Origin: a virus
IMG/VR virus record: IMGVR_UViG_3300001683_001958
Location: 1-23,926 of that record
Strand: one strand, 5' to 3'
DNA length: 23,926 nt
Below the pieces are notes generated by a model. That model saw only the letters and a program-made list of their open reading frames with translations, ran no database searches and was not told the origin of the DNA. Positions 1,561-23,469 of the stretch are shown here, in pieces. The translations under genes were made by a program, and so were the position numbers. Every line of letters starts with the position of its first letter. Within the stretch, counting starts at the first letter, position 1.

Positions 1561-2772
1561 ATGCAAATTACGCAAAATAGACTTCAAAGAATTATAGCTG
1601 AAGAGATTAATCATATTCGAAGAGACACCTATATTGCACAGCAAACTAAATCTGTTAACAAAATATATAATCTTCTTAGAGAGAACAGGCGTAATCCTCG
1701 ATATAATATAGCTAGAGATCTTTTAAGTGATGCAGTTCAAAATCTTGAAATGTCTAGACATCTTAGATCTAGCTTAGTTGAAGAGCTAGCTGTTGATTTC
1801 CCAGGAACTGAAGAAGTAATAAATATTCCCGGTCTTAACTCTTCTGATGATGATGATGAAAAAACCATCATGTATCACATATGGACACTTATCCAATCTG
1901 GTTTTCCACCAGCTGCGGCGTATAGAGTGATTAAGAATGTTTTAGCTGGTAATTTTGTTGAAGCATTTAAAAACCTCCCTATTGTGAATGCTTTTCTCAA
2001 CCCTGAGGCACTATGGGAATTACTTGATAGGGGTCTTGATATATTGCCGGCATCTTTAAAAGAAGACATTATATCAAACGGTGCTGTAAAATATCTAATG
2101 AGGCTCTTATTCACTGTAAAAGAATTAACAACATCTAGAGATATTGATGAATTTTATAATAACTTAAAAGCACTAATTGCCTCTAGTGTAGAGGTTAGTG
2201 TGGCGTTTGTTGCAATTCTTTCCGCTCTTGTAGCCCCTTGCACAGCAGCTGTCGGAAGCGCTGCAGCCTTTACTGGGCCGATAGCTGCACTTGCTACAGC
2301 CCTTGGAAGTCTGGCAGTTGCTACATCTGTAGCCTGTCCGCCATGCAGTGCTGCTGCTATGTTTATAGTTATTAGTATGGGATCGATTTGTATGACAATT
2401 ATTGCATCGGCTTCAACACTAGCAGCTCTTAAGCTTATTGCTAGTCACACAGGAGGGGCAGATCAAGTCACAAGAATAGATAAAGAAATGGATAAAGCTC
2501 TCAAAGATGTTCAAAAGAGATCACTAACGCTAGTAGACGACATGGAGAAAAATACCAGAGATCAGATTGAACGCGCAGAGCTAGATCAACCTAAAGCTGA
2601 TGATTTGTCAACAGGCCCTGTATCATCAAAAGATGACGGTGCTGCCTTTGAAGTGCTGCCCGGATTTGGACAAACTGATAGTGATCAAGATCTTGCTGCA
2701 GTTGCAGAGTCAGTAAATGAGTCCTTTAACTATGACAGAGTTGGTGTACTTGCTGGCATTTTAAAAGGATGA
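1561..2772 (+). CDS. Tagged multi-pass hydrophobic protein
   Basis: 403 residues. The leader is MQITQNRLQRIIAEE (I12-A13-E14). Residues 20-200 are helical and soluble, with an acidic run DDDDE near 96-100. Residues about 203-296 are strongly hydrophobic and rich in Ala, Gly and Ser, enough for about three membrane helices (near 208-231, 236-260 and 263-292), and include cysteine pairs around 227 and 259-262. A charged coiled-coil-like segment (about 300-345) follows, then an acidic tail with a PGFG element at 367-370 that is also found near the C-terminus of the gene at 6666. A packaged protein able to insert into the host membrane at DNA entry would fit, but this is inference; no family is recognised. 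Its stop overlaps the next start in ATGA. Confidence 0.85.
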   Translation: MQITQNRLQRIIAEEINHIRRDTYIAQQTKSVNKIYNLLRENRRNPRYNIARDLLSDAVQNLEMSRHLRSSLVEELAVDFPGTEEVINIPGLNSSDDDDEKTIMYHIWTLIQSGFPPAAAYRVIKNVLAGNFVEAFKNLPIVNAFLNPEALWELLDRGLDILPASLKEDIISNGAVKYLMRLLFTVKELTTSRDIDEFYNNLKALIASSVEVSVAFVAILSALVAPCTAAVGSAAAFTGPIAALATALGSLAVATSVACPPCSAAAMFIVISMGSICMTIIASASTLAALKLIASHTGGADQVTRIDKEMDKALKDVQKRSLTLVDDMEKNTRDQIERAELDQPKADDLSTGPVSSKDDGAAFEVLPGFGQTDSDQDLAAVAESVNESFNYDRVGVLAGILKG

Positions 2773-3641
2773 AGATAGCTAGGCGAGAACTAAGAGATAT
2801 TCTTATTACAGAGATATCTCGCTTGCTAAATGAAGTTGAGAGTAGATCATTTAGTATGAATGACAGGGTGACTGTTATTAACTATGATGTCCCTGCAACT
2901 GTTGTTGGGAAGCTACCTGGTCATCGTGGGTATATAATAATGTCACACGATGATAGAGAGCCTGGTGCACATTTAAAAAAACCTACCCAAGAAGATCTCG
3001 ACTCTCTTACAGAGAAGCAACTAACTGATGAAGTATTAAGCAGACTTGTTGAAAAAGAGAGGTTACACATAGTTCAGGCTCCCCTTTTATCTCTCGAACA
3101 AAGGACAACGCAGGCTGGTCACTTTGTTGACGACGCTGGAGGTGATATAGTTCATCTAGCTTTAGAAATACTCGGTCTAGTGCCTGGCGCTGGAGAGGGT
3201 TTCGATATAGCAAATGCAGTGCTATACCTTAGAGAAACCCCTACTAAAATTCTTGACGCTGTAATCTCTTTAATAGGAATTTTCCCAGGTGTTGGAGATT
3301 CATTAAAAGCTCTACCGATAAAAGGAGCATTAGCATTAGATATTATTGAAACAGTTGCACCTAAGGTGCTAGATCTAGTTGAGGAACTAGCAAAGACTCA
3401 GCCTCTATTTAAGAAAAACCAATCGGCTATTAATAATGAGATAAATAGAATAGTTAGCGGAGATACTCCTTTAACAAAAGAGATCGCAGCTCAAGCAAGG
3501 GTTGTGGGAAAAGAAGCTAGAGAGTTAGTTCAATCACTATCAGAGAATAGAAGAGTATCTAATCGTAGAGATAGTATCGTGTTAGATAGAAAACAGCTTC
3601 AAAGAATAATAAAAGAAGAGATTTTAAGATCTATTTATTGA
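2769..3641 (+). CDS. Protein tagged at both ends, with glycine-hinged hydrophobic hairpin
   Basis: 290 residues. The N-terminal leader is MKIARRELRDILITE. Residues about 28-75 look like a small SH3/KOW-type beta domain (NDRVTVINYDVPATVVGKL). Residues 125-182 hold a hydrophobic pair with repeated glycine hinges, LVPGAGEGFDIANAVLYL and then FPGVGDSLK, resembling the membrane-seeking segment that precedes toxin domains in some polymorphic toxins (pre-toxin TG type); this resemblance is by eye only. The last 20 residues contain a second full copy of the tag (LDRKQLQRIIKEEI, from residue 272). An in-frame GTG at 3579 could in principle start that copy as a 20-residue peptide. The start overlaps the previous stop by 4 nt. 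Confidence 0.85.
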   Translation: MKIARRELRDILITEISRLLNEVESRSFSMNDRVTVINYDVPATVVGKLPGHRGYIIMSHDDREPGAHLKKPTQEDLDSLTEKQLTDEVLSRLVEKERLHIVQAPLLSLEQRTTQAGHFVDDAGGDIVHLALEILGLVPGAGEGFDIANAVLYLRETPTKILDAVISLIGIFPGVGDSLKALPIKGALALDIIETVAPKVLDLVEELAKTQPLFKKNQSAINNEINRIVSGDTPLTKEIAAQARVVGKEARELVQSLSENRRVSNRRDSIVLDRKQLQRIIKEEILRSIY

Positions 3642-3990: not shown

Positions 3991-4229
3991 AAAAATTTCT
4001 AGTATATTTTGCACTCACTTTATCTCTTTTAATGTTTGCTGAATCAGCCATAGCACAAGATATGTCAGACATTGAGAGAGACGCAAAAGCTCTAGAGCTT
4101 TATATTCAGGATAAAGAAGATCATGAGAAACACTGCCCTTACGTAGTCTGGAAACAGCCTAAAATAGATGTATACAAGGACAAACTAGAGTCTCAACTTC
4201 CAGAGAATTGTAAAAGTGAAGATAACTAG
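3987..4229 (+). CDS. Small secreted (periplasmic) protein
   Basis: 80 residues. Residues 1-23 form a type I signal peptide: MKK, a hydrophobic core LVYFALTLSLLMFA, then the AIA|QD cleavage motif. The mature part, about 57 residues, is charged and has two cysteines (residues 50 and 75) that could form a disulfide in the periplasm. The start overlaps the end of the membrane/coiled-coil gene by 4 nt, and its own 3' end overlaps the next gene by 14 nt. A two-component envelope-acting pair with the preceding gene is plausible. No family is recognised. Confidence 0.8.
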   Translation: MKKFLVYFALTLSLLMFAESAIAQDMSDIERDAKALELYIQDKEDHEKHCPYVVWKQPKIDVYKDKLESQLPENCKSEDN

Positions 4230-4740
4230 AAGAGAATTAAGATCTCTAATATTAGAGACGCTATTGCTAGAGTCAGTCTCTGCAGTTGATGTTGAAGCCT
4301 CTGTAACTAGAGCAATAGAGATTCTTGAGATAGATGATTCTAATTTTAAAAACTTTATGCTAGAGATAGTAAGAACAGAGTCTGGATTTAACCCGTCGGG
4401 TGAAGAGGGATTCACATCACATAGAGATAATCCGTTTCAACTTACAAGACCTGCAATTGAGCAGACGAAAATATCTAGAAGGCTCGGCGACTATAGAGAG
4501 AGAATCTTTAGCAATGCAAATATGAAAAATACATGGATTGATCAGACAATAGAAGAGATACAATCAAATACAACTCTTGGTGCATTAGCTGCAGTTTTAT
4601 ATATTCTTGATTTTTTAAGAGGCACTTCTGTTCCGAGTGATCTACAGTCAAGAGCGGCGCTATGGAAGAAAAAGTATAACACAGAGTCTGGTGCAGGAGA
4701 AGTATCTCATTACATTAGTAAAAATCAAGGAAGATTTTAG
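4216..4740 (+). CDS. Tagged lytic transglycosylase-like protein
   Basis: 174 residues from a GTG start that overlaps the previous gene by 14 nt. GTG is chosen because translation from it gives the leader MKITRRELRSLILE. The body resembles an SLT/lysozyme-like fold: TESGFNP at 54-60 gives the catalytic-type Glu55-Ser56 pair, NPFQLT at 72-77 corresponds to the G-x-x-Q element, and WKKKYNTESGAG at 150-161 resembles the conserved end of phage muramidases. The likely role is cutting peptidoglycan glycan strands. With the tag, it could be delivered from the capsid to open the wall during DNA entry, as internal transglycosylases of podoviruses do (inference). The fold is assigned from motifs only. 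Confidence 0.7.
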   Translation: MKITRRELRSLILETLLLESVSAVDVEASVTRAIEILEIDDSNFKNFMLEIVRTESGFNPSGEEGFTSHRDNPFQLTRPAIEQTKISRRLGDYRERIFSNANMKNTWIDQTIEEIQSNTTLGALAAVLYILDFLRGTSVPSDLQSRAALWKKKYNTESGAGEVSHYISKNQGRF

Positions 4741-7966: not shown

Positions 7967-9049
7967 ATGATATCTCTTAATAGAGAAGATATTAGGAGAA
8001 TGATTGTATCAGAAATGATCAGTGTTAGATCACTTAAGAAGCTTCCTGATGAGTTTTATGGTGCACTTGAGAATACTATTTACAATTCTCATTTTTGGAC
8101 TTATGAGAATGGTGAAGATGATATAGAGTTAAACAAGATAGGCGGCGAATATTGGGAACAAACAGATGCTGCTGTCACATTGGGAGATACTATTCAAGGA
8201 TTCTTTGACGTTGCTGGATTCCCTATAACAATAGTAGTTAGAACTCCAGATCCCATAGTAAATACAGAATGGATTGTAAATCCTGGTCACAAGGATTACC
8301 CAGACAGAATAGTTCTTGGAGGGGAGCAGTCACTATCAAATAGAGGAAGATTTGTTATGTATCTAAATCTAGTAATATTTGGACCTGACTTTATTATTAA
8401 TGATATAGATCCCGTAGTTGTTTCTAAAGATATAGGCAGGATTATTAGGCATGAACTTACTCATGCACTACACTACGAGAAAAGAAGATCTAGTCAGGGT
8501 ATTTCAAGACTTACTGCAAAGCAAAGATTTGAGGATGAGGGTGAGATTGTAGACTCTAAAGATAGAGAGAAATATTTATCATCTAAAATAGAGATTGATG
8601 CATATGCTCACCAGTTTGCAGAAGAGTTACTTTCAAATTATGGAAAGGAAGAAGCTATTCAATTTCTTAGAGGCCCTATTGAAAAATTTAAAAATGTAGA
8701 TGTATCTGATGAACTGATTGAATATCTTTTCTATTTCTCTGACCCGCTTCTTATTAAAAGATTAAAGTCAAAAATATATGCAAATATCATCGATCTAACT
8801 GATAGAGAGATCTATGAGGCAAAGAAAAAGAAGAAGAGAAAAAACTATAGTGGGTCACAACCAGAAGATGCTTATATGAAAGGGACAAAGAAAAATTTGC
8901 ATCTTGATAAGCCGAGTAGTCACGGTGGATGGCCTAGCGGACCGAGTAAAAGCTTTACTAGCAATAAACCTGTTATGAAACAAATAAGTAGCTGGCTAGA
9001 AGATATGGCAATGCTTGAAGAGCTAGAAGAAGAATTTGAAGATATTTGA
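7967..9049 (+). CDS. Tagged zinc metallopeptidase (HExxH)
   Basis: 360 residues. The leader is divergent (LNREDIRRMIVSEM, with V-S-E in place of I-x-E). Residues 25-150 precede the catalytic helix IIRHELTHALHYEKR, giving zinc ligands His162 and His166 with catalytic Glu163. A downstream EIDAYAHQFAEEL (from 209) probably supplies the third ligand, Glu209. This is the zincin arrangement with a glutamate third ligand. A lysine-rich hinge (KKKKKRKN, about 286-293) leads to a separate C-terminal segment ending in an acidic helix (LEELEEEFEDI). GAGGT precedes the ATG. If the tag directs packaging, this would be a protease carried in the head, possibly for host-protein or wall-associated cleavage on entry. 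The substrate is unknown. Confidence 0.85.
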   Translation: MISLNREDIRRMIVSEMISVRSLKKLPDEFYGALENTIYNSHFWTYENGEDDIELNKIGGEYWEQTDAAVTLGDTIQGFFDVAGFPITIVVRTPDPIVNTEWIVNPGHKDYPDRIVLGGEQSLSNRGRFVMYLNLVIFGPDFIINDIDPVVVSKDIGRIIRHELTHALHYEKRRSSQGISRLTAKQRFEDEGEIVDSKDREKYLSSKIEIDAYAHQFAEELLSNYGKEEAIQFLRGPIEKFKNVDVSDELIEYLFYFSDPLLIKRLKSKIYANIIDLTDREIYEAKKKKKRKNYSGSQPEDAYMKGTKKNLHLDKPSSHGGWPSGPSKSFTSNKPVMKQISSWLEDMAMLEELEEEFEDI

Positions 9050-12312: not shown

Positions 12313-14325
12313 GTGAAAATTTCAGAATCTCAAGTTAGAAAAATTATTAGACAGGAGATGTCTAGAAAGAGAAAGGGAAATCTTTTTGAGGCATATCCTC
12401 AGGATCCCACTCCGACACAAATGGATGATCTTAGAGCAGAGCTTGCACCCTGGGGCGCAGTTTTAGGGGATGGAGAGCCCGACTCTAAGACTCTTGAAGC
12501 TTGGAAAAAGTTTATCTATGAGAGATATGAACCTCTCACTAGAGGCACTGGCGGCGTTTCTGTTGTTCAATCTCCAGATGTTCCTCATCCTATGAAACTA
12601 TACAATGATTGGGACAATGCTTGCACATTAGTTGGATATCCTCCTGGTGTTCAAGGCATGATGCAATTTATTAATGATGGAGGTATGCCAAAAACTGGAA
12701 GCCCAGCAGCAACTGGACTTTCATCCAATATAACAAGCCTACTGGAGCAGTCAATTTCAGCAGCAACGGCTGTTGTTACTCCATCAATGACTGCTCTTGA
12801 GAATCTTGATCCTGGAGATGGAGCCATTGTCCACGCTAGATCTGCAGCAGATGTTGTCTGGGCTTGGAAAAATATTAAAAAGGTTATAGACGAAGATTCA
12901 ACACAGCTCATGCACACCAGAGTTCTAATTGCAAGATATGCGATGGAGCACGGAGATTTTGTTAGCCCAGATGCGAAATGGGCTGAAGAGAATCCTGGAA
13001 AAGCTGCTTTGGCAATGGCTGCACTTGGCTTCGCGATCCCTGTTCCTGGTACTTCTACTTTATTTGCAGCGGGATCACTTTTGGGCAGCTGGTGGCTTTC
13101 ACTTTTAAATAGCCAGACAACTACATCAATAGCAACTATTATGTCACTAATGTCAGATCCGGATCTTGCAACTGATTTGCAGCACATGTCTAAAGTAGTA
13201 AAGAAAGGTAAGGCAGGTCACACAATAGCTGGACAGGTTGGCTCAGGATTAGATCAACTCTTTGGAGTCGGAGAGCTCGGACCAGGAAATCCTTTTGGGC
13301 AGGCTCTCAGCACATTATCCCTTGTGTTTCAAAAAGCATCAACAATGGCAAACTATAGACAGGCTAATGCAAAAGGAACAATGGATAACTTCTTGACAAC
13401 AATTGAGTCTACACATCCAAAAGCAGTGGAATCATTTAGAACAGGAAAGATTGTCTCGGGTGCTCTTGATGAGAGAAAGATGATAAGAAGAGAGATTGAT
13501 CTTGTAATAAGAGATCTAATTGGTGAGTCAAAGACTGATCGATCTAGAAGAGTTATTAGAAGGGATATAAGATCAATATTTTCTGAGGGTACACTTGGCC
13601 TTGACCCCTCTGCGGTTGATCAGATGGCTAGAACATATAGAGATGAAGAAGTCGAAGTGAATGATACTCAGCCTACTCCGCCGAATGTGCCGCCGCCAGC
13701 TCCGCCAAAACCAGGTGGTGGCGGTGGCGGTTGTGTTCAAAGACTTCAAAAGATTGTTATTCCTAGTGAGGTAGACGGTGCATGGGGTCCAAATACAAAC
13801 AAAGCATTCTTTGCCTTTATTAAGAAAAAGCTAGAAGAGATGGGAGAATCTATCGATGGCATACACCAGGCGTCATGGTCTGGATCTGGAGCAGCAAAGG
13901 CTAGTACACTATTTGATCCAACATTTGGCCCTGGGCCCTGCGGTGCAGCGGAGTTTGTTGAGCATCTTGCTGGAAGCTCTACCGCTGCGTCAACTGAGCC
14001 TGATGAAGATGTTCCCACTGGAAGAGATATTACAACCGTTAAGAGGGGTGGCAAAAAGCATAAGTGGAATCCTGCTGAGTCAATACAGTTTAAGGATATT
14101 CCAAATTTCACAGATGGAAGACTTATTAGAGATAAGATAGTAAGAATGACTCTAATATTTGATAGAGATATAGAGACTGTGACTGCTGCTGATATACCCA
14201 CTGCAAGAATTAATATAAACGGCTTGCGAATGTCACATCAAGATAATATTGCTGTAATTAAGTCATGGCTAAGCGGCAAGGGAGATGCCTGGCTTGACGA
14301 AAGATTTAATCTTGAAACAGACTAG
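12313..14325 (+). CDS. Large tagged protein with hydrophobic segment and peptidoglycan-binding-like domain
   Basis: 670 residues from GTG 12313. This start is chosen because it gives the leader MKISESQVRKIIRQEM and has GGAGAG at 12303-12308; a TTG at 12301 would add four residues and no ribosome binding site. Residues about 228-266 are hydrophobic (AALGFAIPVPGTSTLFAAGSL) and may insert into a membrane. Two internal tag-like helices occur at about 388-406 (MIRREIDLVIRDLIGES) and 412-426 (RRVIRRDIRSIFSEG). A Pro- and Gly-rich hinge (about 455-473) follows. Residues 474-506 resemble a PG_binding_1 repeat (LQKIV...VDGAWGPNTNKAFFAFI). The C-terminal 130 residues are unassigned. A structural or wall-binding head cargo is plausible; there is no catalytic motif. 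Confidence 0.8.
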   Translation: MKISESQVRKIIRQEMSRKRKGNLFEAYPQDPTPTQMDDLRAELAPWGAVLGDGEPDSKTLEAWKKFIYERYEPLTRGTGGVSVVQSPDVPHPMKLYNDWDNACTLVGYPPGVQGMMQFINDGGMPKTGSPAATGLSSNITSLLEQSISAATAVVTPSMTALENLDPGDGAIVHARSAADVVWAWKNIKKVIDEDSTQLMHTRVLIARYAMEHGDFVSPDAKWAEENPGKAALAMAALGFAIPVPGTSTLFAAGSLLGSWWLSLLNSQTTTSIATIMSLMSDPDLATDLQHMSKVVKKGKAGHTIAGQVGSGLDQLFGVGELGPGNPFGQALSTLSLVFQKASTMANYRQANAKGTMDNFLTTIESTHPKAVESFRTGKIVSGALDERKMIRREIDLVIRDLIGESKTDRSRRVIRRDIRSIFSEGTLGLDPSAVDQMARTYRDEEVEVNDTQPTPPNVPPPAPPKPGGGGGGCVQRLQKIVIPSEVDGAWGPNTNKAFFAFIKKKLEEMGESIDGIHQASWSGSGAAKASTLFDPTFGPGPCGAAEFVEHLAGSSTAASTEPDEDVPTGRDITTVKRGGKKHKWNPAESIQFKDIPNFTDGRLIRDKIVRMTLIFDRDIETVTAADIPTARININGLRMSHQDNIAVIKSWLSGKGDAWLDERFNLETD

Positions 14326-14343: not shown

Positions 14344-15870
14344 ATGATTATATCAGAGGAAGAGATAAGAAATCTTATAAGAGAATCTTTAGATAAAAAG
14401 AGAGTAAATGAAATACTGTCTCTAGTCATATCTGATATAATAGAAGAGAATAATTCTAAAGGTGTAGCTCTTACAGAAGATGAAATAAATCATCTTGTTG
14501 TTGAGAAGCTTAAAGCTGCTAGGTCAATTGGAAGTGCTATCCAATCTTTAACAAGAACGTCACAAGGAGATTCAGATTCTCCAGATGCTGGCTCGATTGG
14601 AAGAACAAGCGGGAGTAACAAATTAACTTCTTTAAATCCTAATGCTGCGGATACGTTTAGAGCATTTATCAATGATGCTACAAGAAATAAATACTCTATA
14701 AGAATAACAAGCGCACAAAGAATGCCAAGCCATCAGTGGAATTTAAGATTTGGAAATAGAAGGGGAATTACACCTGCACAACCATGTCGATCAGATCACC
14801 AGTATGGATATGCAATTGATATTAATTTTTCATATGAAAAGGATGGAGATAAAGTAAGAGTTAACTCTAAAAGCTCTGATGAATTGTGGAAACCAATAGT
14901 TGACATTGCAAGATCCCATGGAATAAAATGGCAAGGTGCATCAGATAGAGTTCACTTTTTTGTACAGGGCGTGGGATCATTACAAAAAGCAAAATGTGAT
15001 CAATTTTTTGCTGACGAGCTTGGAACAGGGACGCCATCTGGGAGATCTGGAGCTGCAATTAGAAAAAGATGGGGATCTGCATCTATGAAAAGAGTAGAAG
15101 ATGAAAATCCAGCTAAGATCAAAGGTATACTTAAACTAGCAGAATCTGATCTTAGAAATATTATAAAAGAAAAGCTTAAAGCAGCAAAGTCTATTGGAGC
15201 CGGTTCTGGATCAGTGAAAGCAACAACATCATATGATACTTCAGGTGATAATAAGGGATGCGATGGAGAAGGTCCTATTACATCTTCAAAATATCCAAAA
15301 AGTGCAATAACAGCTATTGAAAAACGCATGGATGATAAAGGAATTACTAGTAGATGCACAAGGATAGCTATTTTATCTGTTTTAGCAAAAGAGTCAGCAC
15401 TTAAACCGCAGACTGAGTGGTGCTATACTGATAAATCAAACAGTGAAATAAGAAATATATGGTCTAAATTTAAATCATGGAGTGATACAGATCTTAATGA
15501 ATTAAAAGCTAACTGTGAACTATTTTTTAACACTGCATATGCTGGTATGATTGGAAATGGCGGTGTTGAAAGTGGGGACGGGTATAGGTTTAGAGGAAGA
15601 GGACTAGTTCAACTTACAGGCAGGGGAAACTATGAACAATATGGGTATACAAGTAATCCAGATGCTTTAAATAGTTTGCCTGCTGCTGCAGATGTTGCTG
15701 TAGAATTTATCACAAGAGGTTTATCTGATTTAAACTTTAATAATCTAGAAGACGCAATAAAGGCAGTTGCAAATGTAGTTGCGGGCAGTGGCAATACTGA
15801 GATTAGTGAACATTCTCCGCTAGGAAGAGCAATAAGAATGGCTACAGCTACTTCAAAACATTTTGCTTAA
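14344..15870 (+). CDS. Multi-tagged M15 peptidase + GH19 lysozyme/chitinase-like fusion
   Basis: 508 residues with two wall-degrading domains. Residues about 90-210 are an M15-type D,D/L,D-peptidase: SDHQYGYAIDI supplies His152 and Asp159, and RVHFF supplies His204 as zinc ligands. Residues about 312-508 are a GH19 glycosidase: AKES with catalytic-type Glu350, and the family signature YRFRGRGLVQLTGRGNYEQYG at 414-434. Leader copies occur at the N-terminus (EEEIRNLIRESL), at 44-62 (EDEINHLVVEKLKAARSIG) and in the linker at 266-284 (ESDLRNIIKEKLKAAKSIG), so a tag precedes each domain. The enzyme should cut both the peptide stems and the glycan of peptidoglycan. It could be a packaged entry enzyme, or an endolysin given that a terminator follows directly. 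Confidence 0.9.
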   Translation: MIISEEEIRNLIRESLDKKRVNEILSLVISDIIEENNSKGVALTEDEINHLVVEKLKAARSIGSAIQSLTRTSQGDSDSPDAGSIGRTSGSNKLTSLNPNAADTFRAFINDATRNKYSIRITSAQRMPSHQWNLRFGNRRGITPAQPCRSDHQYGYAIDINFSYEKDGDKVRVNSKSSDELWKPIVDIARSHGIKWQGASDRVHFFVQGVGSLQKAKCDQFFADELGTGTPSGRSGAAIRKRWGSASMKRVEDENPAKIKGILKLAESDLRNIIKEKLKAAKSIGAGSGSVKATTSYDTSGDNKGCDGEGPITSSKYPKSAITAIEKRMDDKGITSRCTRIAILSVLAKESALKPQTEWCYTDKSNSEIRNIWSKFKSWSDTDLNELKANCELFFNTAYAGMIGNGGVESGDGYRFRGRGLVQLTGRGNYEQYGYTSNPDALNSLPAAADVAVEFITRGLSDLNFNNLEDAIKAVANVVAGSGNTEISEHSPLGRAIRMATATSKHFA

Positions 15871-16273
15871 TATACGACTCGTATATTCTTTTTCTTTTTG
15901 GATGGCTTTTTGCATATAGCTTTATAAGCTCACCAGCCCTAGCATTTGCCTCATCCTCTATAGATCCGCCTGCATCTTGAATCTCACCAGATAATATTCC
16001 ACACTCATCTTGCATCATGTGTGTCAGCTCGTGAGCTATTGACCTCAATATGTCAACAAGCGCTCTATCTCTTCCATAAACCTTGACTATGTTTTTTCCT
16101 ATGTGGTAAGCAGCTGTAGTATCTATGTGATGACTATTTCTATCGCTTACAACGTATATTTCAAAATCGCCCACTATTGGAAGGCTATCAGCGCAAAAAT
16201 TAATAAAATCGCCAGCTAGTAAAGAGTTCTCTGGAGTAATATTAACACCGCTGTCTAAATATAATTTTCTCAT
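15848..16273 (-). CDS. Small zinc metallopeptidase (HExxH)
   Basis: 141 residues on the minus strand. The catalytic helix IAHELTHMMQDE gives His81, Glu82 and His85. The conserved downstream stretch GGSIEDEANARAGELIKLY (from 103) supplies the likely third ligand, Glu106 or Glu108. It has no signal peptide and no leader tag, unlike the larger HExxH protein at 7967, with which it shares little beyond the motif. I recall similar small metallopeptidases in other marine phages, but that is memory, not a search. The 3' end overlaps the convergent GH19 gene by 23 nt. The substrate is unknown. Confidence 0.85.
   Translation of the reverse strand: MRKLYLDSGVNITPENSLLAGDFINFCADSLPIVGDFEIYVVSDRNSHHIDTTAAYHIGKNIVKVYGRDRALVDILRSIAHELTHMMQDECGILSGEIQDAGGSIEDEANARAGELIKLYAKSHPKRKRIYESYIKQNVLK
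15869..15899 (+). terminator. Intrinsic terminator overlapping the stop codon
   Basis: The palindrome AATATACGACTCGTATATT (15869-15887) forms an 8-bp stem starting on the last bases of the GH19 stop codon, followed by TCTTTTTCTTTTT. It ends the plus-strand operon and lies inside the 3' coding end of the convergent metallopeptidase gene. Confidence 0.75.
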
Positions 16274-17739: not shown

Positions 17740-18897
17740 GTGTCTATTTTTAGAAATCATAAAACATCTGCAGATAGATCAGCTTCAGATAGAAGTAGAC
17801 ACAAAGAGAAGATAAAAAGAGCTATAAAAGACGGTGTTTACAACATTGTATCCAGCGAATCGATTATAGGAAAAGATGGAAAGAAAAAGATAAAAATTCC
17901 TGTCAGAGGGATAAAAGAATATAGATTCATCTATGGTAAAAATGAAAAAAAGGTAGGCTCCGCCCCAGGAAAAAATATAAGTAAGGGTCAAATAATTGGA
18001 GATGGAAAAAAGAAACGAAAGGCCAAGTCAGATAAAGGTGCCGGAAATCAAAGAGGTGAAGAGTTTTATGAGGTTGAAATAACTTTACAAGAGCTTTCAG
18101 ATTATCTTTTTGATAATTTAAAACTTCCTGATCTTGAAAAAAAGAAATTTAAAAAACTTATATCTGACGGATTTAAAAGAAAAGGATTTAGAAAAAAGGG
18201 GATTCGGCCTAGACTTAGTAAAAAAGAGACATTAAAAAATAAGCTTAAAAGAAAAAAGGCAGCATCTAGAGATAATCCTGATTTTGATGATGAAAATTTT
18301 TCATTTCATGAGTCTGATTTAAAATACAAACACATAGACTATAAATCAAGAGAAAATTCTAATGCTATAATATTCTTTATGATGGATGTATCAGGATCTA
18401 TGAGCAAAGCTAAGAGATTTAAAGCTAGATCGTTTTTCTTTTTACTGTATCACTTTCTTCGAAGCAAGTATGAGAACGTAGAGATAGTATTTATATCTCA
18501 TACAATAGAAGCAAAAGAAGTATCAGAAGATAATTTCTTTAAAGAAAGTACTACAGGCGGAACTATAATATCATCAGCTCTGGAAAAATGTCTTGACATA
18601 GTAGATAAAAGATATCATACTGATTCTTGGAATATATACGCATTTCATTGCTCAGATGGTGATAATTGGCCAACAGATAACGATAAAGCTGTTAAATTAT
18701 CATTAAAATTATCTCAGATATGTCAGCTATATTGTTATATTCAAATAGCTGCTGCTGCAAATGAGACATTTTGGTCAACTGGCGGAATGGCCGGTGTTTA
18801 TGAAAAAATTAAAAGCTCAAAGTTTAAAATTATCTCTATTGAAAAGTCTGAAGATGTCTGGAGAGAGTTTAAGAGAATATTTAGGCAAGGGGAATAA
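17740..18897 (+). CDS. yeaH: YeaH/DUF444-family VWA protein
   Basis: 385 residues from a GTG start with AGAGG upstream; bacterial YeaH is about 427, so this is slightly short. The N-terminal half is basic, with the family's early RSASDRSRHKEKIK and a Gly/Lys-rich region (about 85-105). The C-terminal half is a von Willebrand A domain with a complete MIDAS: DVSGS at 216-220, the Thr of TTGGT (271-275) and SDGDN at 305-309. In bacteria YeaH is encoded with the PrkA kinase (YeaG) and SpoVR and is linked to starvation and stationary-phase responses. An AAA+ protein paired with a VWA partner recalls the MoxR/VWA systems. Here it opens an operon with spoVR and prkA. Confidence 0.92.
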   Translation: MSIFRNHKTSADRSASDRSRHKEKIKRAIKDGVYNIVSSESIIGKDGKKKIKIPVRGIKEYRFIYGKNEKKVGSAPGKNISKGQIIGDGKKKRKAKSDKGAGNQRGEEFYEVEITLQELSDYLFDNLKLPDLEKKKFKKLISDGFKRKGFRKKGIRPRLSKKETLKNKLKRKKAASRDNPDFDDENFSFHESDLKYKHIDYKSRENSNAIIFFMMDVSGSMSKAKRFKARSFFFLLYHFLRSKYENVEIVFISHTIEAKEVSEDNFFKESTTGGTIISSALEKCLDIVDKRYHTDSWNIYAFHCSDGDNWPTDNDKAVKLSLKLSQICQLYCYIQIAAAANETFWSTGGMAGVYEKIKSSKFKIISIEKSEDVWREFKRIFRQGE

Positions 18898-18900
18898 ACT

Positions 18901-20202
18901 ATGTCTGATTGGTCAATAAGTGATCTAAAGTCTTGGGATGAAAAGATCTGTAAAATAGCTGAATCTTACAATCTTGATTGGTTTCCAATATCTTATGAGA
19001 TATGTGACTATTATGAGATGATTGGTCATATGTCATACCATGGAATGCCTTCTCACTATAGCCATTGGTCATATGGCAAGTCATTTGAAAGAACTCACCA
19101 GATGTATAATTTGGGAATGGAGGGTCTGCCATATGAATTGATTATCAATTCAAACCCATCAATAGCATATCTTATGAGAGAAAATCCATTTTATCTTCAG
19201 ATACTAATAATGGCACATTGTGTTGGTCACAGTGATTTTTTCAAAAATAATAGAATTTTTGAAAAAACTAAACCAGATAGAATTGTGACTAAAATGAGAA
19301 ATTCAAAAAAGAGAATTCAGAAATATTCTGAAAATCCTAATATTGGGCGAAGTACTGTTGAATCTTTTCTTGATAATTTACATACCATAAGATTCCAGAC
19401 TGAAAGAAATAGAATGAAAAGATTATCAAGAAAAGATCTTGATGAGAAATATGTAAACTTAATAAACTCTGATAAAAAAAATAATTTTATTGATATTGAA
19501 AAAACTTTGCTTGAACCAGACTATGATCTTCTATCTTTTTTAATTGATTACGGAGATCACTTTAAAGACTGGCAATTAGACCTAATCAATATAGTTCGTG
19601 ACGAATCTTGGTATTTTATACCCCAGATTCAAACAAAAATACTTAATGAGGGCTGGGCTTGTTTCTGGCACTATAAGATAATAAACGAGCTAGACCTTCC
19701 TCAAAAATATCATATCCCGTTTCTTAAAAGTCATAATCAAGTAGTAAGACCTCATGTGAGCTCTATAAACCCATATCATGTAGGATTTTATCTTTTTAAT
19801 AAAATAGAAAAGGAAAAGGGATTAGATGAGTGTTTTTTTATAAGAGAGGTTCAAGATGATGCATCAGCTATCAATTGTCATCTTGATATAGAGGATTTTA
19901 GAAAATTAAATCTATTCACATACTCAGTAAAAAAGAATAAGATAAGCATTGATGATATATCTGATGAAGAGGGGTGGAAATCTGTGAGATCTAGCCTGTT
20001 AAAAACTATAGGAGTTAATTCAATTCCTAGAGTATATGTTTCTGATATATCTAGTAACGGTAATTTAATACTTAGTCATGATCATGATGGAAGAGATCTT
20101 GAGCTTGAATTTGCTGAAGAAGTTGTAACAAGTATTAGAAAACTATGGAATAAAGAAGTTAAGTTTTTTACTATAATTGAAGATGAATCGTTTGAGATCT
20201 AA
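18901..20202 (+). CDS. spoVR: SpoVR-family protein
   Basis: 433 residues; bacterial SpoVR/YcgB is about 500, so the C-terminus is somewhat short. Diagnostic blocks are present in order: GMPSHYSHWSYGKSFE (48-63), MYNLGMEGLPYE (68-79), IINSNPSIAYLM (81-92), MAHCVGHSDFFKNN (104-117), NEGWACFWHYKI (about 247-258) and NPYHVGFYLF. The histidine- and tyrosine-rich blocks are the conserved core of the family, whose biochemical role is not established; it was named for spore cortex formation in Bacillus and belongs to the PrkA/YeaH stress operon in many Gram-negative bacteria. It starts 3 nt after yeaH with an AAGGGG ribosome binding site, so the two are co-translated. Confidence 0.93.
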   Translation: MSDWSISDLKSWDEKICKIAESYNLDWFPISYEICDYYEMIGHMSYHGMPSHYSHWSYGKSFERTHQMYNLGMEGLPYELIINSNPSIAYLMRENPFYLQILIMAHCVGHSDFFKNNRIFEKTKPDRIVTKMRNSKKRIQKYSENPNIGRSTVESFLDNLHTIRFQTERNRMKRLSRKDLDEKYVNLINSDKKNNFIDIEKTLLEPDYDLLSFLIDYGDHFKDWQLDLINIVRDESWYFIPQIQTKILNEGWACFWHYKIINELDLPQKYHIPFLKSHNQVVRPHVSSINPYHVGFYLFNKIEKEKGLDECFFIREVQDDASAINCHLDIEDFRKLNLFTYSVKKNKISIDDISDEEGWKSVRSSLLKTIGVNSIPRVYVSDISSNGNLILSHDHDGRDLELEFAEEVVTSIRKLWNKEVKFFTIIEDESFEI

Positions 20203-20224
20203 TTATTAACATGCAGGTACCAGA

Positions 20225-22153
20225 ATGTCAAAAGAAAAGTTTTTATCTCTAATAAAAAATCAGAGAAAGCAAAAGAAAACAAAAAGATTTTCAGGAACAT
20301 TTATTGATTATCTAGAGTTAATAAGTGAAAATCCTGATATTGTAAAATCTTCACATAAGCGTCTTTATGATGCTTTGACTTCTCACGGAGTTGAAATTAT
20401 TGAAGATTCAGATTCACGAAAAAATAAGATATTTGACGGCGATAATGTCAAAATATACACTTATTTTAAAAGTAATTTTTTCGGAATGGAGAGGGTCATT
20501 TCAAAAATAATGAGATTTCTTAGATCAGCATCTTTGAAGGGAGAGGAGAGTAGACAAGTCTTGCTCTTAATGGGTCCAGTAGGGGCAGGAAAATCTGATC
20601 TTACTGAAAATATCAAGAGATCTCTAGAGGGGGAAACATTTTTTCATCTAGGTGGTGATCCTCAAAGAGGTGAACCTCTACATCTCATTCCAAGAAATCT
20701 TAGAGATAAATTTACAGAAGAGTTAGGTATCCATATAGATGGTGATATAAGTCCTATTGCAAGATTTAAGCTGCTAGAGGAGTATGATGGAAAATATGAA
20801 AACTTTCCTGTAGTAGAAACATCATTCTCTCAGAGAGCTAGAAGAGGAATTGCTTCTGTTCCGCCTATGGATGCTAATAGTCAAGATGTTGGAGTTTTAA
20901 TAGGCTCTGAGGATATTTCTAAACTTGATAAATATCCCGAAGATGACCCTCGTGTGTTATCTTTAAATGGTGCTTTTAATGTAGGTAATAGAGGTATAGT
21001 TGAACTTATTGAGGTTTTCAAAAATGAAATAGAATTTCTACATACAGTTATAACAGCAACACAGGAAAAAAGAATTCCCTCTCCTGGAAAAAATGATCTT
21101 ATTCATTTTGATGGAGTTATTATTGCTCATTGTAATGAGTCTGAGTGGAATAGATTTAGATCTGAGCATACTAATGAAGCAATTCTTGACAGAATTGTTA
21201 AAGTTGAAGTTCCATATGTTCTCGAGCTTAATCAGGAGATGAAAATATATGAAAAGATATTGTCAAAATCAGACTTTGATGATCACATAGCACCTCATAC
21301 GTTAAAAATAGCATCAATGTTCTCTGTTATGTCAAGGCTTAAGCACACACAAAAATGTGATATTTTAACAAAGATGAAGATTTATAATGGTGAAGATGTT
21401 ATAGAGAAAGGAAGGGTGAAAAAGATTGATATAAAAGATCTTAGAGATGAAGCTTATAGAGAGGGAATGACAGGAATATCTACGAGATTTATTATGAAAG
21501 CAATAGATTCAGCACTTTCAGACTCTGAAAAATCTATGATTACGCCTAACGCTGTAATAGAATCTCTTATAAAGCAGGTAAAAGAACAAGTAATAAATGA
21601 AGAAGATAGAGACATATATCTCGAAATACTTCAGAAAGTTATAAGAGAAGAATATTTAAAAATTCTTGAAAATGAAATAGCAAAAGCTTTTATAACAGCA
21701 TATGAAGAGCAAGCCCAATCACTTTTTGACACATATTTGGATAATTCTGAGTGTTACACAAATAGAACCACAGTAAAAGATAGAATAACAAGAGAAGAGA
21801 GACACCCTGATGTTGATTTCATGAAGTCAATTGAGGAGTGCATTGGAATAGTAGGATCGTCAACAGATGGGTTTAGATCTGATATTACAGCATATATGTT
21901 TGCAAAAATGAGAAGAGGAGAGAAGATAGACTATAAGAGCTATGGTCCTCTTAAAGAAGCCATCGAGTCATACCTTATAAGCTCAGTTAAGGATATAGCT
22001 AGAATTGTTACAAGAAGCAAATCTAGAGATGATGACCAAAAGAAAAAATATAATGAGATGATTGGCACGCTAATAGATGAGTATGGATACAATGAAGATT
22101 CTGCTGAGGAGGTTTTAACCTATGCTTCAAATAATCTTTGGAGAGACTCATAG
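20225..22153 (+). CDS. prkA: PrkA (YeaG) family AAA+ serine protein kinase
   Basis: 642 residues, the same length as bacterial YeaG/PrkA (about 640). The N-terminal AAA+ domain has Walker A GPVGAGKS at 117-124, then the PrkA-specific SLNGAFNVGNRGIVELIEVFK (Walker B region) and ITATQEKRIP, followed by IIAHCNESEWNRF. The C-terminal kinase-like region keeps ILTKMKIYNGEDV and EGMTGISTRFIMKAI. All the family's landmark blocks seem intact, so an active ATPase/kinase is likely. PrkA works with YeaH in bacterial stress responses; a phage copy may reset host physiology or phosphorylate host targets (inference). It lies third in the operon, whereas in bacteria prkA usually comes first. Confidence 0.95.
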   Translation: MSKEKFLSLIKNQRKQKKTKRFSGTFIDYLELISENPDIVKSSHKRLYDALTSHGVEIIEDSDSRKNKIFDGDNVKIYTYFKSNFFGMERVISKIMRFLRSASLKGEESRQVLLLMGPVGAGKSDLTENIKRSLEGETFFHLGGDPQRGEPLHLIPRNLRDKFTEELGIHIDGDISPIARFKLLEEYDGKYENFPVVETSFSQRARRGIASVPPMDANSQDVGVLIGSEDISKLDKYPEDDPRVLSLNGAFNVGNRGIVELIEVFKNEIEFLHTVITATQEKRIPSPGKNDLIHFDGVIIAHCNESEWNRFRSEHTNEAILDRIVKVEVPYVLELNQEMKIYEKILSKSDFDDHIAPHTLKIASMFSVMSRLKHTQKCDILTKMKIYNGEDVIEKGRVKKIDIKDLRDEAYREGMTGISTRFIMKAIDSALSDSEKSMITPNAVIESLIKQVKEQVINEEDRDIYLEILQKVIREEYLKILENEIAKAFITAYEEQAQSLFDTYLDNSECYTNRTTVKDRITREERHPDVDFMKSIEECIGIVGSSTDGFRSDITAYMFAKMRRGEKIDYKSYGPLKEAIESYLISSVKDIARIVTRSKSRDDDQKKKYNEMIGTLIDEYGYNEDSAEEVLTYASNNLWRDS

Positions 22154-22158
22154 AGTAG

Positions 22159-23469
22159 ATGTATACTAACTTTTTAAATCATGATGATTTTAAAAAAATA
22201 TTAAAATTATCAATAGAAAATATTGATAATTTTTTTGATAATAGTATTGAAAGTATTTTACTTAAAGATAAGTGTTTAACGTCAAGTCTAGTTCAAAGAT
22301 ACGCATATTTTAAAAATGATAATATTCATAACAAAATAATAAAACCGCTTTTACTAGATGCAGCCATGAGATCTGAGAATATTTCTGGTGGAGCAGGTGA
22401 TATTTGTCTAAAGATTTCTTCAAAAATACTATTAGATAAATCACATATAGATTTTAAAACACCAGATATTGAAAAAATAATATTGAAAAATTCAAAAAGA
22501 GCAGATAGGGCTGACTTTTATAATCTTGTAGAAAAAAATTCAACATGCAGTGATCATACTGATATATTTTTATTTCTTTTTAGAAAGATGAATATTAGCT
22601 CTCCTATATTTGTTGAGAGATCTAGATTATCAAAAACAAGAATAGTACTTGATAGTGGTTTCAAGTTTAACATAGCTGTTGATAAAAAATACATTACTAA
22701 TAAGACAAGAAAAATGTCAAATGTCAAATGTTTTGTTATAGACGGCTTTATAGAGTCAGTAAGTGAGATTCATCATCTTCTTGAAGAAGCTTCACGAACA
22801 AAAGAAAATTACGTAATATTTTTTAGACATATGAATGAAGATGTCCAGTCTACAATAGAGTATAATATTCAAAGAGGTACAATAAATCTAATACCGGTAA
22901 GCGTAGGATTTGATGAGAATACTTTGAATATTTTAAATGACATATCTATATGTACAAATTCAGAGCTAATATCTTCTCACAAGGGAGATATAATATCTCA
23001 ATCAATTAGAAAGGATCCTGTTATTGTTGATTCTATTGAATTTTTAAAAGATTCTATTTCAATAATAAATAAAACACCATCAGATATGTTAAAAAGTCAC
23101 TTAAGATATCTTAGAGACAAGAGAGAGTGTTCAGGCAATCCTAGTATATTTAATATTATTGAAAATAGAATAAAATCATTATCTTCTGGAAAGATAGTAG
23201 TTTCTATAGGCGCTGATTTAATTTCTAAAGAACCTAGAACTATTGAGATATTTGACAAAATTCTTAGAGAGATGAGATCTATGATAAAGTCTGGAGTAGT
23301 TTATCTAAATGATTTAGAAGATAATATTAAAATTAAAGATATAATCTTAAATAGCAGCTATCCGTATTCTCCCCTCTCTATAATTGTAGCATTAAGAAAT
23401 TCACAATCAGTATTCAATAGCTTGCAATCTATTAGCGGTGTTATTTACGAAGATGATCCACATGCTTAA
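22159..23469 (+). CDS. Divergent GroEL-like protein (probable pseudo-chaperonin)
   Basis: 436 residues; GroEL has about 548. I recognise GroEL order in three blocks. In the N-terminal equatorial part, residues 68-81 (AAMRSENISGGAGD) align with the segment ending in GDGTTT. The apical domain is about 150-280: IDGFIESVSEIHHLLEEA, then VIFFRHMNEDVQSTIEYNIQRG, then ILNDISICTNSELIS, matching GroEL's lid and polypeptide-binding region. In the C-terminal part, ENRIKSLSSGKIVVSIGAD (335-353) and IFDKILREMRSMIKSGVV match GroEL's helix before the GGG loop. Missing are TLGPKGRNV, DGTTT, the Asp equivalent to D398 (Lys here), the GGG loop and the final helix. ATP turnover is therefore doubtful. It directly follows prkA (5-nt gap). 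Assignment is by eye. Confidence 0.7.
   Translation: MYTNFLNHDDFKKILKLSIENIDNFFDNSIESILLKDKCLTSSLVQRYAYFKNDNIHNKIIKPLLLDAAMRSENISGGAGDICLKISSKILLDKSHIDFKTPDIEKIILKNSKRADRADFYNLVEKNSTCSDHTDIFLFLFRKMNISSPIFVERSRLSKTRIVLDSGFKFNIAVDKKYITNKTRKMSNVKCFVIDGFIESVSEIHHLLEEASRTKENYVIFFRHMNEDVQSTIEYNIQRGTINLIPVSVGFDENTLNILNDISICTNSELISSHKGDIISQSIRKDPVIVDSIEFLKDSISIINKTPSDMLKSHLRYLRDKRECSGNPSIFNIIENRIKSLSSGKIVVSIGADLISKEPRTIEIFDKILREMRSMIKSGVVYLNDLEDNIKIKDIILNSSYPYSPLSIIVALRNSQSVFNSLQSISGVIYEDDPHA

Follow-up and report, generated by a model that had tools for sequence, protein, structure and literature searches.

In bacteriophage T4, the prohead protease gp21 cleaves after L/I-x-E, and processing of the 10-residue capsid-targeting sequence of IPIII is set by residues 8 and 10 (PMC9026906). 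In T4 Alt, gp21 cuts both ends, a C-terminal propeptide included (PMC9026906). The T4 ipII and ipIII products each open with a 10-residue peptide that ends in I-A-E. In the giant phages phiKZ and SPN3US, many head proteins carry propeptides that are cut after x-x-E, some of them at several sites, and the products described are a mature protein and a discarded propeptide rather than two enzymes (PMC10052503). Polyvalent proteins (Iyer et al. 2017) are multidomain proteins that are packaged and injected and are predicted to be processed, which is ascribed to built-in zincin-like peptidase domains; some include lysozyme or DD-peptidase domains (PMC5512222). The open literature searched yielded no description of a prohead protease that releases two enzymes from a single targeted precursor.

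The stretch analyzed here (the window) comprises 23,926 nucleotides of a virus fragment of 30,293 bases, the source of which seems to be a large, T4-like phage. Its open reading frame at 14344-15870 (plus strand, ATG start) encodes a 508-residue protein, P0001, in which an M15 peptidase domain is followed by a GH19 lysozyme/endolysin domain. Many genes of the window start with a similar sequence (the tag, of the type MK(I/L)(T/S)RxxLRxIIxEE), and P0001 carries it at its N terminus and again, as a sequence-only reading had proposed, both before the M15 domain and in the linker before GH19. Judged from sequence, P0001 is probably a head-targeted precursor of two wall hydrolases of a T4-type phage, cut after E14, E54, and E276. 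It resembles T4 IPI to IPIII and Alt in its short N-terminal [LI]-x-E peptide and in the diverse cargo found behind a common peptide, and relatives encode a gp21-type protease and a gp23-type capsid protein. It differs from them in a longer helix (∼14 residues) of another sequence, in a cargo of wall hydrolases, and in the further tag copy within the linker that joins two enzymes. Head maturation in phiKZ and SPN3US resembles the proposed processing in that propeptides have E at the cut and several sites are possible, although the SPN3US motif is A-x-E (PMC10052503) and that of P0001 is [LI]-x-E. Unlike the polyvalent proteins, P0001 has sites of the prohead protease type between its modules; a built-in zincin-like processing peptidase was not found in it, and its M15 domain is of the wall-peptidase type.

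The M15 domain matches Pfam Peptidase_M15_4 (5.1e-7; 30.6 bits against a cut-off of 25) and resembles Ply500 (2vo9) in both sequence and fold, with a metal site formed by S-x-H152...D159 and D201-x-x-H204 (SDHQYGYAID and DRVH, matching SxHxxGxAxD and DxxH). The GH19 domain matches PHROG_181 (1.1e-18) and, by sequence and fold, the PDB entries 9ms6, 8p8e, and 9eoi; its catalytic stretch AKESALKPQTE contains E350 and E358. Judged by eye, the active-site motifs of both domains are intact, and these two were the only domains detected by Pfam and PHROG. An AlphaFold model built with 16 sequences (the model made without an alignment was of no use, with a pLDDT of 35) shows both domains with confidence, the M15 domain being ordered except for loop 133-144, and the tags as separate helices. 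The linkers at residues 65-89 and 283-303 are disordered (pLDDT <50), and tag 3 is a low-confidence helix that runs into the second of these.

The sequence-only reading had placed the three tag copies at residues 3-15, 44-62, and 266-284. All three are present, with boundaries now refined so that the last residue of each is E (Table 1). A 20-column tag profile, built from 14 other tags of the window with P0001 excluded, gave 20.3 bits for residues 1-20 and 19.3 bits for residues 263-282, values reached by none of 351,198 shuffled positions. Tag 2 (residues 41-60) cannot stand alone because its profile score is only 4.2 bits (P of ∼1.3e-4 per position and ∼0.06 over the whole of P0001); further backing comes from its repeat with tag 3 and from a relative, L104, which has a similar second copy. 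The repeat, LTEDEINHLVVEKLKAARSIG and LAESDLRNIIKEKLKAAKSIG, scored 77 compared with at most 55 in 40 shuffles of P0001, and none of 200 segment shuffles was as good. The two copies of the shared EKLKAA(R/K)SIG, which had also been noted from the letters, are identical at 25 of 30 nucleotides and differ by four synonymous codon differences and one R/K change, and the residues after the two sites (55-63 and 277-285) are nearly identical. An internal translation start for the GH19 half was considered and rejected: the tag 3 codons are CTT/CTA, and no Shine-Dalgarno sequence plus start lies nearby.

Table 1. Positions in the window of the P0001 features and of the genes bordering its slot (↓, predicted or possible cut)
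Feature	Position	Strand	Remarks
Upstream tagged protein, 670 aa, VKISESQVRKIIRQE	12313..14325	+	GTG start; tag profile 38.7 bits; other slot border
Tag 1, residues 1-14, MIISEEEIRNLIRE	14344..14385	+	Predicted cut after E14 (I-R-E↓S)
Tag 2, residues 41-54, VALTEDEINHLVVE	14464..14505	+	Possible cut after E54 (V-V-E↓K)
Post-site KLKAARSIG, residues 55-63	14506..14532	+	Predicted N terminus of freed M15 enzyme
M15 peptidase domain, residues 91-226	14614..15021	+	Peptidase_M15_4
Tag 3, residues 263-276, LKLAESDLRNIIKE	15130..15171	+	In linker; predicted cut after E276 (I-K-E↓K)
Post-site KLKAAKSIG, residues 277-285	15172..15198	+	Predicted N terminus of freed GH19 enzyme
GH19 lysozyme/endolysin domain, residues 312-508	15277..15867	+	PHROG_181
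HExxH (AHELTH) protein, convergent	15848..16273	-	56-69% identity in 11 relatives; slot anchor

Relatives were collected by a scan with the PrkA protein of the window, which gave 79 related loci on contigs of up to 289 kb. The tag is common to unrelated proteins of the same region. Across the window and 47 loci, 117 tags were counted and 111 of them coincide with a start codon, which makes an internal copy unusual. The shared tag weighs against what we regard as the least probable account of P0001, a conventional endolysin that lyses the cell when infection ends, with an N-terminal similarity that has nothing to do with heads. Endolysins commonly contain M15 and GH19 domains, but the same tag stands on unrelated proteins of the region and ends in a prohead protease motif.

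In P0001, this motif closes the N-terminal peptide, which ends LIRE14↓S, i.e., L/I-x-E. Among 150 similarly tagged N-termini picked on tag columns 1-11 only, with the motif counted for P3 in columns 12-22, [LI]xE directly follows columns 1-11 in 90%, compared with 9-12% further downstream; these N-termini include related sequences and are therefore not independent. Columns 12 (P3) and 14 (P1) are conserved, and column 13 (P2) is freer. Within P0001 itself, [LI]xE occurs nine times compared with 4.2 expected by chance, and two of these lie in the GH19 domain, so counting the motif alone is too weak as evidence for sites. The putative protease that would read the motif belongs to the gp21 type (PF03420) and was found in the records of 12 relatives, on larger contigs; a capsid protein of the gp23 family was above cut-off in 12 relatives, and L-[RK]-E aligns with LTE65 of T4 gp23 in each of the eight capsid proteins examined. 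Neither a gp21-type protease gene nor a gp23-type capsid gene was seen in the 30,293-base fragment. The [LI]-x-E end of the tag, together with this protease family and the L-[RK]-E of the capsid proteins, is the ground for likening the tag to the T4 capsid-targeting sequence; most likely it would work in the same way, with one part that targets and an end that is cut. The earlier proposal that the tags are protease sites stands insofar as they end in the gp21 motif, but the tag also appears to be a targeting helix and the tag 2 site, V-V-E, departs from [LI]-x-E; a targeting helix plus a cut site is the better reading than a protease site alone.

It could be argued instead that the tags are helices for binding or assembly (to a scaffold, to DNA, or to each other) that are left uncut, two or three copies raising avidity for the core. 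The tag is indeed a strongly patterned amphipathic helix, and one example is C-terminal (window 2769-3641). We consider this highly improbable, since the pattern ends in hydrophobic-x-E with a free P2, as in the gp21 motif, and since in the slot enzymes described below the E of the motif slides between residues 12 and 26 while the helix stays put. The C-terminal propeptide of T4 Alt is cut by gp21 (PMC9026906), so a C-terminal tag fits cutting as well.

In relatives, P0001 corresponds to a slot that has a large tagged gene on one side and the convergent HExxH gene on the other and is occupied by N-terminally tagged wall hydrolases of many folds. They include GH19 as well as M15 (L041, L037, and L038), M23 (L003, L024, L073, and L074), DUF2272 (L052, L054, and L057), DUF2272 with glucosaminidase (L066), SLT (L137), and, by weak matches, muramidase-like enzymes with phosphatase (L031 and L071). 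Across the slot enzymes, 22 of 26 have [LI]xE within residues 10-32, compared with 14.6% of control windows, and all 26 have the motif once V is allowed at P3. L104 and L106 also have a large tagged gene at the position of window 12313-14325. In the window, its product contains an internal tag-like stretch at residues ∼412-427 (RRVIRRDIRSIFSE, 6.2 bits), and by eye the segment after it resembles a peptidoglycan-binding one.

No close relatives of the whole of P0001 were found by pattern search, and a P0001 query against the whole contigs of the 79 relatives matched only in L009 and L041. A scan with the M15 domain matched a single contig, that of L104, and a scan with GH19 matched mostly other phages without the window-type tag. 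Single-domain homologues with one N-terminal tag, which the sequence-only reading had asked for, exist at the same locus as M15 enzymes in L041 and L037. Separate tagged hydrolase genes, two in each slot, occur in L106 and L137. In L106, an M15-like gene (called by eye, no family being over cut-off) adjoins and precedes a DUF2272 gene, and their tags, MNEEILRQMIREVLITEKLK and MNEYLLRNLIREVLLTEKLK, are nearly identical and end in ITE↓KLK and LTE↓KLK; L107 is a near-copy with the same gene pair. In L137, the separate tagged genes encode SLT and M23, and E↓KIQGRS is common to both.

Fused forms are also found. L104 has a single open reading frame with M15, DUF2272, and a third domain (hydrolase-like by reading), a tag between M15 and DUF2272, and the sites IFE↓LLST, ITE↓LLTT, and LAE↓TLST ahead of the three domains. 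P0001 aligns with it at 39% identity over 285 columns (P0001 residues 1-274), and the similarity reaches into tag 3 and ends where GH19 replaces DUF2272. In L009, KLSESLIRSAIRDAFLTE ahead of GH19 is the counterpart of tag 3, the N terminus being lost at the contig end. Besides P0001, only L104 and L009 repeat the helix ahead of a domain other than the first in this slot. The helix inside L104 has drifted, and its site lies further on. In L071, ALIKE↓QS... at the N terminus is matched by GLTE↓QS... before the third domain, where the site and the following sequence recur without the helix. In favor of the sequence-only reading, the internal copy is retained in L104 and matched by a counterpart in L009; the fusion of L031 clearly lacks it, with no [LI]xE in its linker, and that of L066 doubtfully so, its linker sharing only EKLN, no better than shuffles. 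The linker site I-K-E276↓K lies in what the model shows as a flexible linker, and its tag has counterparts in L104 and L009, among the few homologues compared.

M15-GH19 fusions of other phages (L185, L186, L193, L199, and L207) pair the two enzyme types in the order seen in P0001 and likewise have an N-terminal [LI]xE peptide, but no [LI]xE in the linker; therefore, fusion alone needs no cut site. The GH19 fusions of L185, L186, L190, and L199 end in a sequence of the type [LIV]xE...RIKD(I/L)(I/M)(K/R)K(I/V)(L/I), which may be a further peptide for packaging or cleavage.

These forms bear on the possibility that P0001 is the fossil of a gene fusion, in which a stop was lost between two tagged genes, the internal tag is a leftover helical linker, and one bifunctional enzyme enters the head by tag 1. 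The separate tagged genes of L106 and L137, the lack of a linker site in the other M15-GH19 fusions, which presumably stay joined, and the two-tag open reading frames found elsewhere all agree with it. We nevertheless think it unlikely: L104, with an M15 part that shares just 47% identity with that of P0001, still has both the internal tag and the site; L104 and L071 retain a site and the sequence following it ahead of domains that have lost the helix; and most of the differences between the two copies of EKLKAA(R/K)SIG are synonymous. Module pairs from a single phage can be more alike than any pair drawn from different phages: 5 of 11 within-phage scores were above all 109 between-phage scores (P = 0.013), an exploratory comparison because the segments were chosen by eye. 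A broader reading, which we consider about as likely as not, is that the T4-type prohead protease would serve as a polyprotein processor, with fused enzymes entering on one tag and being cut apart in the head, a site for each module, and a shared post-site sequence specific to the phage. On this reading, the phage lineage could exchange, separate, and join its packaged wall enzymes at the borders set by the tags.

Single open reading frames with two tags, the second internal, were also seen in L059 (539-1993), L020 (1495-2874), L047 (30-707), and L039 (5390-6463), in the last of which the stretch after the tag is repeated too (SETQ..GLPH); they suggest tag-bordered fusion in other protein families. 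In the window, the protein at 2769-3641 (plus strand) is strongly tagged at each end (41.4 and 37.9 bits), which recalls T4 Alt, and is resembled by L044 765-1115 and L064 699-1055. Two further plus-strand genes are tagged: 4216-4740 (GTG start, weak PHROG_3108 match), which looks lysozyme-like and might be one more wall enzyme for packaging, and 7967-9049, which is metallopeptidase-like (HELTHALHYE) without a Pfam or PHROG match. At 17740-23469 (plus strand), the phage carries DUF444 (YeaH), SpoVR, and PrkA as a trio, after which comes a weakly GroEL-like gene; the gene order is kept in many relatives.

In the mechanism that we infer, from capsid entry through cleavage and ejection to the role of the protein, the amphipathic helix of the N-terminal tag would bring P0001 into the prohead core in the manner of the T4 capsid-targeting sequence, and the end of the tag would be the recognition motif of a gp21-type prohead protease. 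Cleavage following E14, E54, and the linker residue E276 would free an M15 peptidase (approximately residues 55-276) and a GH19 lysozyme (277-508), each with KLKAA(R/K)SIG at its N terminus. The freed enzymes would exit the head together with the DNA and breach the next host's wall. If this is true, the head of a tailed phage would contain a set of enzymes that degrade the wall and are supplied in the form of cleavable precursors, and the T4 capsid-targeting system would be widened from single proteins to enzyme polyproteins. Further, the helix tag plus [LI]xE would provide a sequence rule by which packaged proteins could be listed in uncultured jumbo phages, and P0001 and its relatives would be natural examples of loading several enzymes into one head.
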